Source: Gallionellaceae bacterium (GTDB lineage Bacteria; Pseudomonadota; Gammaproteobacteria; Burkholderiales; Gallionellaceae). From it: 64,000 nucleotides of DNA. Of the stretch, positions 6,253-7,809 are shown one piece after another. Each line of letters starts with the position of its first letter. Positions within the stretch are counted from its first letter, which is position 1. Where the stretch lies: assembly GCA_030823955.1 (NCBI GenBank), contig JAVBYO010000007.1, forward strand, positions 1 through 64,000, given 5' to 3'. A model generated the notes under the pieces. The model had not been told where the DNA came from. It made no database searches and worked only from the letters and a program-made list of their open reading frames with translations. A program made the translations under genes and the position numbers.

Positions 6253-6876
6253 ATGAAACTCTTGCAACGATTGTTCGCAGTGGCACTGTTGGTGTTGTCC
6301 GCGCAGGCTTTGGCCGAGGCGCAACTGGGACGTGACTACAAGGAACTCAGTCCCGGACAGCCCACGCGCAGCGGGGACAAGATCGAAGTGCTGGAATTCT
6401 TCTTCTACGGCTGTTCACATTGTTACCATCTGCATCCGCAGTTGAGCGCATGGGAGAAGAAGATGCCCAAAGATGTCGATCTGCAATATGTGCCGGTCAT
6501 CTTCCGCGATTCTTGGGAGCCAATGGCGCGAACGTTCTACGCGATGGAAGCGCTGGGTCAGCCGTTGCGTCTGCACGACGAGCTGTTCAGCGCCTGGAAC
6601 GTGAGCAACATCGTGCTGGATAAAGAAGCGGATATTCTGGACTTCGTCGCGCAGCGCGGTATCGATCGCGCCAAGTTCTCGGCAGCCTACAATTCGTTCG
6701 CCTTGAGCAGCAAGATCAACCGTAGCAAGCAGATGCTGCAGGATTATGGCATCCGTGGCACTCCCACACTGGTGGTGGGCGGCAAATATGTCATCACTGG
6801 TCTGACGCCTGAAGTCACCATCCAGGTGCTGAACGATGTGATCGCCAAAGTGCGCAAGGAACGCAGCAAGCACTGA
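6253..6876 (+). CDS. dsbA: Thiol:disulfide interchange protein, DsbA family
   Basis: Signal peptide, FFFYGCSHCYHLHP active site, cis-Pro motif GTPTLVV. Confidence 0.88.
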   Translation: MKLLQRLFAVALLVLSAQALAEAQLGRDYKELSPGQPTRSGDKIEVLEFFFYGCSHCYHLHPQLSAWEKKMPKDVDLQYVPVIFRDSWEPMARTFYAMEALGQPLRLHDELFSAWNVSNIVLDKEADILDFVAQRGIDRAKFSAAYNSFALSSKINRSKQMLQDYGIRGTPTLVVGGKYVITGLTPEVTIQVLNDVIAKVRKERSKH

Positions 6877-7727
6877 TGAAGGTCGTCATCACTGGCGCGT
6901 CGAGTGGCCTCGGTCTGGCCCTCGCGCGCCATTATCTTGAGCGCGGCGCAACCGTCGCCGCCTGTGCCCGCCGCTCCGAATTGCTGCAAAGCCTGGCGGC
7001 GGAATTTCCCGGAAAAGTTTTTTGTTACGCGCTGGATGTGCGCGATATCGCCGCCCTCCAACATGCGGCGGAAGATTTCATGGCGCGCGTCGGTGTACCG
7101 GACATCGTTATCGCCAACGCGGGCGTGAGCCGCGGTACGCTCACCGAATATGCCGAAGACCTCGACGCCTTTCAGCAAGTGATAGACATCAATGTGCTGG
7201 GTATGGTGAAGACCTTCCAACCGTTTCTGGCAGCGATGCGTGCGGCAGCCCTCACCCCCAGCCCCTCTGATGAAACTATTAGCCATTCGACTAAGCCCGC
7301 AAGCGGGCAAGTCGCTGGTTATCCCAGAGGGCGAGGGGGGCACTTCACGCTGGTGGGCATCGCCAGCGTGGCGGGCTTTCGCGGCCTGCCCGGTTCGGGC
7401 GCTTACTCCGCTTCCAAGGCGGCCGCGATCTCGTATCTCGAATCGTTGCGTGTGGAGTTGCATGGCAGCGGGGTGAACGTGGTGACGCTGTGCCCCGGCT
7501 ACATCAAGACGCCGATGACCGATGTGAACACCTATCCGATGCCGTTCATTCTGGAAGCCGATGAAGCCGCACGCCGCATGGCGCGTGTCATCGAATCCGG
7601 CAAGTCGTTCGCCGTGGTGCCTTGGCAGATGGGAATGGTGGGATGGTTGCTGAAGTGCTTGCCGAACTGGCTGTATGACTTTGCCTTCAGCAAAGCGCCG
7701 CATAAATCGAGAAAAACCAGTATCTAA
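6876..7727 (+). CDS. SDR-family oxidoreductase carrying an in-frame repeat-derived insertion
   Basis: TGASSGLG, NAGVSRG, YSASK SDR motifs; ATGA overlap with dsbA; extra ~31 aa before the catalytic Ser strand. Confidence 0.9.
   Translation: MKVVITGASSGLGLALARHYLERGATVAACARRSELLQSLAAEFPGKVFCYALDVRDIAALQHAAEDFMARVGVPDIVIANAGVSRGTLTEYAEDLDAFQQVIDINVLGMVKTFQPFLAAMRAAALTPSPSDETISHSTKPASGQVAGYPRGRGGHFTLVGIASVAGFRGLPGSGAYSASKAAAISYLESLRVELHGSGVNVVTLCPGYIKTPMTDVNTYPMPFILEADEAARRMARVIESGKSFAVVPWQMGMVGWLLKCLPNWLYDFAFSKAPHKSRKTSI
7250..7341. repeat. Palindromic repeat element inserted in frame in the SDR gene
   Basis: ccctcacccccagcccctctg...cccgcaagcggg...cagagggcgagggg imperfect nested inverted repeat; related copy at 56892. 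Confidence 0.7.
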
Positions 7728-7747: not shown

Positions 7748-7809
7748 CCGTTCGTGGTGAGCTTGTCGAACCATGAATGAATGTGCTTCGACAGACTCAG
7801 GACGAACGG
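7748..7809. repeat. Intergenic imperfect palindromic repeat of the GTTCGACAGNCTCAnnACGAACGG type
   Basis: ccgttcgtggtgagcttgtcgaacc / gcttcgacagactcaggacgaacgg arms flanking a short spacer, between convergent genes. Confidence 0.75.

Follow-up and report, generated by a model that had tools for sequence, protein, structure and literature searches.

The stretch of Gallionellaceae DNA analysed here (the window; 64,000 nucleotides) carries a short-chain dehydrogenase/reductase (SDR) gene with a palindromic insert in its reading frame (Table 1). The encoded protein has the TGxxxGxG motif, the catalytic Ser, Tyr and Lys residues of SDR proteins and a match to Pfam adh_short that falls in two stretches, one on either side of the insert. 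A preliminary description of this locus reported nested inverted repeats that are read through in the SDR frame, with the flanking motifs undisturbed. These observations hold, as the frame 6876-7727 is open throughout the insert and the TGASSGLG and YSASK motifs are intact. The inverted arms (7255-7269 and 7325-7339) are 15 nucleotides long and 80% complementary, and the insert segment folds better than shuffled sequences both as DNA (z -3.4, 2 of 200 shuffles as good) and as RNA (z -3.6, 0 of 200). For the central hairpin, the number expected in shuffles is 0.

Table 1. Features of the SDR gene, its insert and the neighbouring repeat, in window positions.
Feature	Position	Strand	Basis
SDR gene carrying insertions	6876..7727	+	ORF, 283 aa; Pfam adh_short E 2e-41
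Outer palindrome, left part CCCTCACCCCCAGCCCCTCT	7249..7268	+	Same place in the G004 ortholog without inner element; dispersed in genus
Inner 54-bp hairpin element, encodes DETISHSTKPASGQVAGY	7268..7321	+	Covariance model R1; absent in G004; empty-site test
Central hairpin of inner element (second stem and variable apical stem), GACTAAGCCCGCAAGCGGGCAAGTC	7289..7313	+	Shuffles; compensatory changes
Outer palindrome, right part CCCAGAGGGCGAGGGGG	7323..7339	+	Arm pairing; ortholog comparison
Unoccupied palindromic repeat CCGTTCGTGGTGAGCTTGTCGAA...TTCGACAGACTCAGGACGAACGG	7748..7809	.	Sequence; neighbour of SDR gene

The insert had been described as one palindromic block of about 31 amino acids. 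Although an in-frame palindromic insertion is indeed present, positions 7249-7339 are a composite of two nested dispersed palindromic repeats of different families, with a net gain of 30 amino acids. The boundaries of the inner element are ambiguous by one position, such that 7269-7322 is equally possible with a T flanking both sides, and the match to covariance model R1 spans 7267-7323 (88 bits). The insert sits between a helix ending in FLAAMR and the strand FTLVGIAS, where about 6 residues are present in the solved SDR structure 2nwq versus 35 here. In SDR folds, this position corresponds to the N-terminal end of the catalytic-serine strand, away from the active-site face. A single-sequence AlphaFold prediction of low confidence (mean pLDDT 41) renders the insert as coil flanked by helix 96-125 and strand 157-164. 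Judging from a pairwise dN/dS of ~0.16 between the genome of the window (G000) and its relative G004, the SDR gene is still under purifying selection. A separate repeat of the TTCGAC/GAACGG type, located between the SDR gene and gatB, is unoccupied; this repeat type is occupied by the inner element at four other loci (L117, L120, L195 and L206).

SDR orthologs from eight genomes of the genus were compared, as the preliminary description had suggested, and loop-free orthologs were found. Specifically, the SDR genes of G003, G005, G006 and G007 have no insert and encode the run MRxAxxGxxVGIAS at this location. The G004 gene carries only the outer palindrome (CCCTCACCCCCAGCCCCTCTCCCAGAGGGCGAGGGGG) at the same site, with a net gain of 12 amino acids and the uninterrupted sequence CCCCTCT^CCCAGAGG. 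In G000, the outer palindrome is split by a further 54 bp that add 18 amino acids, which together account for the gain of 30 over the uninserted orthologs. Inserts are present at the SDR site in three of the seven other genus members, and those of G001 and G002 (L033 and L034) are other, unrelated palindromes. Because two unrelated palindromic repeats occupy the same site in these relatives, the SDR loop is an insertion hotspot that tolerates inserts without needing the one found in G000.

Identity between G000 and G004 is 96-100% across the outer repeat and immediately downstream of it (window 7249-7420 versus L032), but 69-91% elsewhere in the gene. This pattern suggests that a short patch around the outer repeat was recently exchanged or homogenised between the two genomes. 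The inner element is present at the SDR site only in G000 and therefore, together with the probable recent exchange of the outer-repeat patch, indicates that the loop is young. Repeats of the outer palindrome type are scattered through the genus, with the clearest cases in G002 and G000, although the pattern is of low complexity and a reversed-pattern control also matches in G000.

The inner element consists of a 12-nucleotide unpaired tail followed by a hairpin. The hairpin starts with a stem of 6 bp, in which a G.T pair is near-invariant; an internal loop separates it from a second stem of 5 bp, and the apical stem is variable. Sixteen pairs are kept over 92 copies; compensatory changes affect nine of these pairs, and one G.U pair is retained in 91 of the 92 copies. 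The asymmetry of this pair suggests recognition of one particular strand. Searches with R1 (57 positions) found 12 copies in the genome of the window, where BLAST with the core yields 11 near-complete matches including the SDR copy, and some of these copies lie in other ORFs. These results agree with the earlier proposal that a dispersed repeat had been inserted; neither a loop conserved in all close orthologs nor a repeat confined to this gene was encountered.

Other members of the genus carry 11-141 copies each by R1, with the maximum in G002. At least one copy is present in 140 of 158 genomes and 14 of 15 genera of the iron-oxidiser family, which was placed as Gallionellaceae via named records; the genomes surveyed are mostly MAGs. 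Across the order, 30 of 399 sampled genomes contain the element, and 11 of these 30 are from Gallionellaceae. Repeated shorter matches that cover only model positions 14-55 (~41-48 nucleotides) and lack the 5' tail occur in G025 and G347, and possibly represent a related hairpin family. Rfam searches with nine loci and the window returned only sub-threshold chance matches, and our literature search on Gallionellaceae palindromes found nothing relevant. As far as the searched databases and papers go, the 54-base hairpin repeat is new.

Net element lengths are 54 (117 copies), 60 (47), 59 (9), 57 (8) and 87 bp (4), with a few others, such that 178 of 193 distinct sampled copies have a length divisible by three. 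This divisibility is suggestive but partly inherited, because 54 and 60 represent two main subfamilies, and the divisible share does not differ significantly between copies in ORFs and the rest (Fisher p 0.07). Each copy usually offers three stop-free frames of the six.

The element resides within several types of dispersed palindromes, including CCCTC..GAGGG, dRS3/CGTC-like CGTCAT^TCCSG, TTCGTCCTGAGC^TTGTCGAA and CTCTGTG types, and has also been inserted in itself (L101, L103 and L220). To establish the precision of insertion, the flanks of 151 sites were joined and compared with unoccupied repeat copies. Matches were obtained for 101 sites when one T was kept, for 33 when none was kept and for 37 when two were kept, whereas mismatched partners gave 19. 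Net insertion is therefore precise, and one T at most is duplicated. The base preceding the target T is C in 120 of 150 sites and T in the other 30. At the SDR gene, insertion occurred at the T of CTCT^CCC with a net gain of exactly 54 bp (18 codons); at most this single T was duplicated. Copies at contig ends in G002 were considered as signs of an IS, but these are self-nested copies. No solo half-elements, as might derive from a long autonomous element with the same ends, were present among the loci searched.

Of the 193 distinct copies, 52 lie in ORFs of at least 250 amino acids with at least 60 on each side. Fifty of the proteins were scanned with Pfam and judged by eye, and in ~32 of them domains are present on both sides of the element in the same frame. 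ORF calls were verified by Pfam, since ORF length alone favoured an antisense frame at the SDR copy. Named from their Pfam domains, the hosts include PurL (three copies), CysRS (two genomes), ValRS, LeuRS (two copies), MetRS, GluRS, MutL (two), RecG, HrpA-like helicases, MoeA, MiaA, RND transporters, HsdR and a P-type ATPase, among others. The frame encoding the hydrophilic peptide DETTSHSTKPASGQVAGY is used in 23 of 32 cases (p 9e-6 versus 1/3). The peptides in SDR and these other hosts are predicted from the reading frame, and are more likely to be tolerated than useful.

The PurL gene of G002 (L101, G002:C99:5000-11500) holds four in-frame inserts, three of which contain the element, and in two of them a copy is nested in another copy. 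Relative to G000 and G003, these inserts measure 83, 39, ~67 and 18 amino acids, and the proteins are otherwise 89% identical. This is the single PurL found in the genome, which is 99% complete. In both G000 and G004, a HI0933-like flavoprotein (L006 and L062) has the element at an identical position, and this copy was therefore probably inherited from their common ancestor. At L075:721-2241, a single open frame includes an EPSP synthase domain and a cytidylate kinase domain on either side of the element, which looks as though it had fused two neighbouring genes.

Rickettsia RPEs are dispersed palindromes found in frame in many unrelated genes (Ogata 2000, 2002, in the summary of PMC10969869). 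The Gallionellaceae element likewise is a dispersed palindrome in frame inside unrelated, often essential protein genes, with a conserved encoded peptide. However, it is only 54-60 bp long compared with ~150 bp for RPEs, which it resembles by behaviour. Also unlike RPEs, it occurs in free-living bacteria and inserts inside other palindromes. GTAG and CGTC REPs are short dispersed hairpins, some of which lie inside known proteins, repair genes included, and CGTC families are without a known transposase (PMC3733652). The same paper reports in-frame intragenic REPs in several other bacteria, and so the statement in the preliminary description that coding palindromes are uncommon outside Rickettsia was too strong.

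The element shares with intragenic REPs its short dispersed hairpin and the location of some copies inside proteins, but it has neither a GTAG nor a CGTC tag 5' of the stem, a longer tail and a three-part stem. It is not a GTAG REP, as its tail is TGATGAAACNAC and no GTAG is present on the structured strand, nor a CGTC REP (CGTC tag, 8-9 bp stem, 4-5 nucleotide loop), given its different tail and 16-pair, three-part stem. Rather, CGTC-1 (dRS3-like) repeats are among its insertion targets. As with Neisseria dRS3, the palindromes CGTCATTCCCGCG..GCGGGAATCCAG receive insertions, but what enters them here is a hairpin of 54-60 bp and not a phage or IS. A classical MITE was rejected because the ends lack a terminal inverted repeat and the duplication is at most one T. 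The folded strand, two conserved stems, asymmetric unpaired part and variable terminal stem recall integron attC sites; nevertheless, RYYYAAC/GTTRRRY boxes are absent and the junctions fall outside the stems instead of within an R box. A resemblance to the hammerhead ribozyme (CTGATGA...GAAAC) was likewise dismissed, since there is no Rfam match at E <=5 (nine loci) or <=1 (window) and stem II is missing. By analogy, the element is best regarded as a protein-coding palindromic element like RPEs and intragenic REPs, with insertion into palindromes as its new aspect.

We consider it very probable that an outer palindrome entered the SDR gene in frame, that a mobile 54-bp hairpin was later inserted inside it, and that the resulting peptide is tolerated. 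The first step placed CCCTCACCCC..GAGGGG in the gene, and the second placed the hairpin element within this palindrome. The element itself would be mobile but non-autonomous, akin to REPs, RPEs and MITEs, and some enzyme would carry it as a folded single strand into YT sites of other palindromes. Its survival in genes would depend on a length that is a multiple of three, on one of three stop-free frames, above all that encoding DETTSHSTKPASGQVAGY, and on a tolerant loop, which in SDR is the loop holding the insert. Because no mobilising enzyme was found, we infer mobility from dispersal and empty sites. The element may have been active in the past through an enzyme that has since been lost.

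Two alternatives for how the element spreads are comparably unlikely. One is that RAYT/IS200-type Y1 HUH transposases move it, as they do GTAG REPs. This fits the strand-specific imperfect hairpin with bulges, insertion without a long target duplication and the presence of Y1 genes in 122 of 158 family genomes. However, PF01797 has no match in the closed genome G025, which holds 32 copies, or in G004 and G007, which also carry copies, and the element is mostly absent from genus g12, which has up to 14 Y1 genes. Moreover, the GTAG tag is absent and no pair of copies flanks any of the 14 Y1 loci of the genus, with a single weak match in L264, so RAYT flanking does not identify the element as a GTAG REP. 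The other alternative is that no dedicated enzyme is involved and that template switching during replication, or gene conversion from one palindrome to another, spreads the hairpins; this is improbable as well. The location of most copies within other palindromes and the homogenised outer-repeat patch favour this possibility, but exact 54-, 57- and 60-bp units with constant ends, found in unrelated palindromes and in the element itself, argue for recognition of the ends.

Movement by an IS110/DEDD transposase or a reverse transcriptase is much less plausible. REP palindromes are known targets of IS110 elements, one of which has a CT core similar to the YT target observed here. Nevertheless, PF01548 is absent from G000, G004, G007, G025, G123 and G060, and PF00078 from G000, G002, G004, G007, G025, G096 and G060, all of which have copies. 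G025 has no match for Y1, IS110 or reverse transcriptase. Copy-rich genomes lacking these enzymes therefore weaken each of them as a required partner. Least likely of all is the preliminary proposal that the insert was exapted as a surface loop that is useful and maintained by selection, for although it is in frame in a constrained gene and three relatives also have inserts there, the loop is young, four orthologs lack it, inserts at the site include unrelated sequences of differing lengths, the inner element is confined to one genome, the outer repeat lies in a homogenised patch and dozens of unrelated proteins share the peptide.

Returning to a mobile hairpin that is tolerated in its hosts, we tentatively propose a broader possibility. 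A hairpin family with unit lengths of 54, 57, 60 and 87 and stop-free frames might spread through coding DNA by nesting in palindromes and in itself, moved by an undescribed enzyme, so that many core proteins of the family would carry element-encoded peptides. The Rickettsia RPEs first raised the question of how palindromic elements end up in frame within essential genes, and the Gallionellaceae element carries this question to free-living bacteria, with more than 100 copies per genome in places. Because empty sites, stepwise orthologs and exact ends are available, both the target rule and the tolerance of the proteins are directly testable. Annotators should treat peptides such as DETTSHSTKPASGQVAGY as repeat-derived when they appear in Gallionellaceae proteins.
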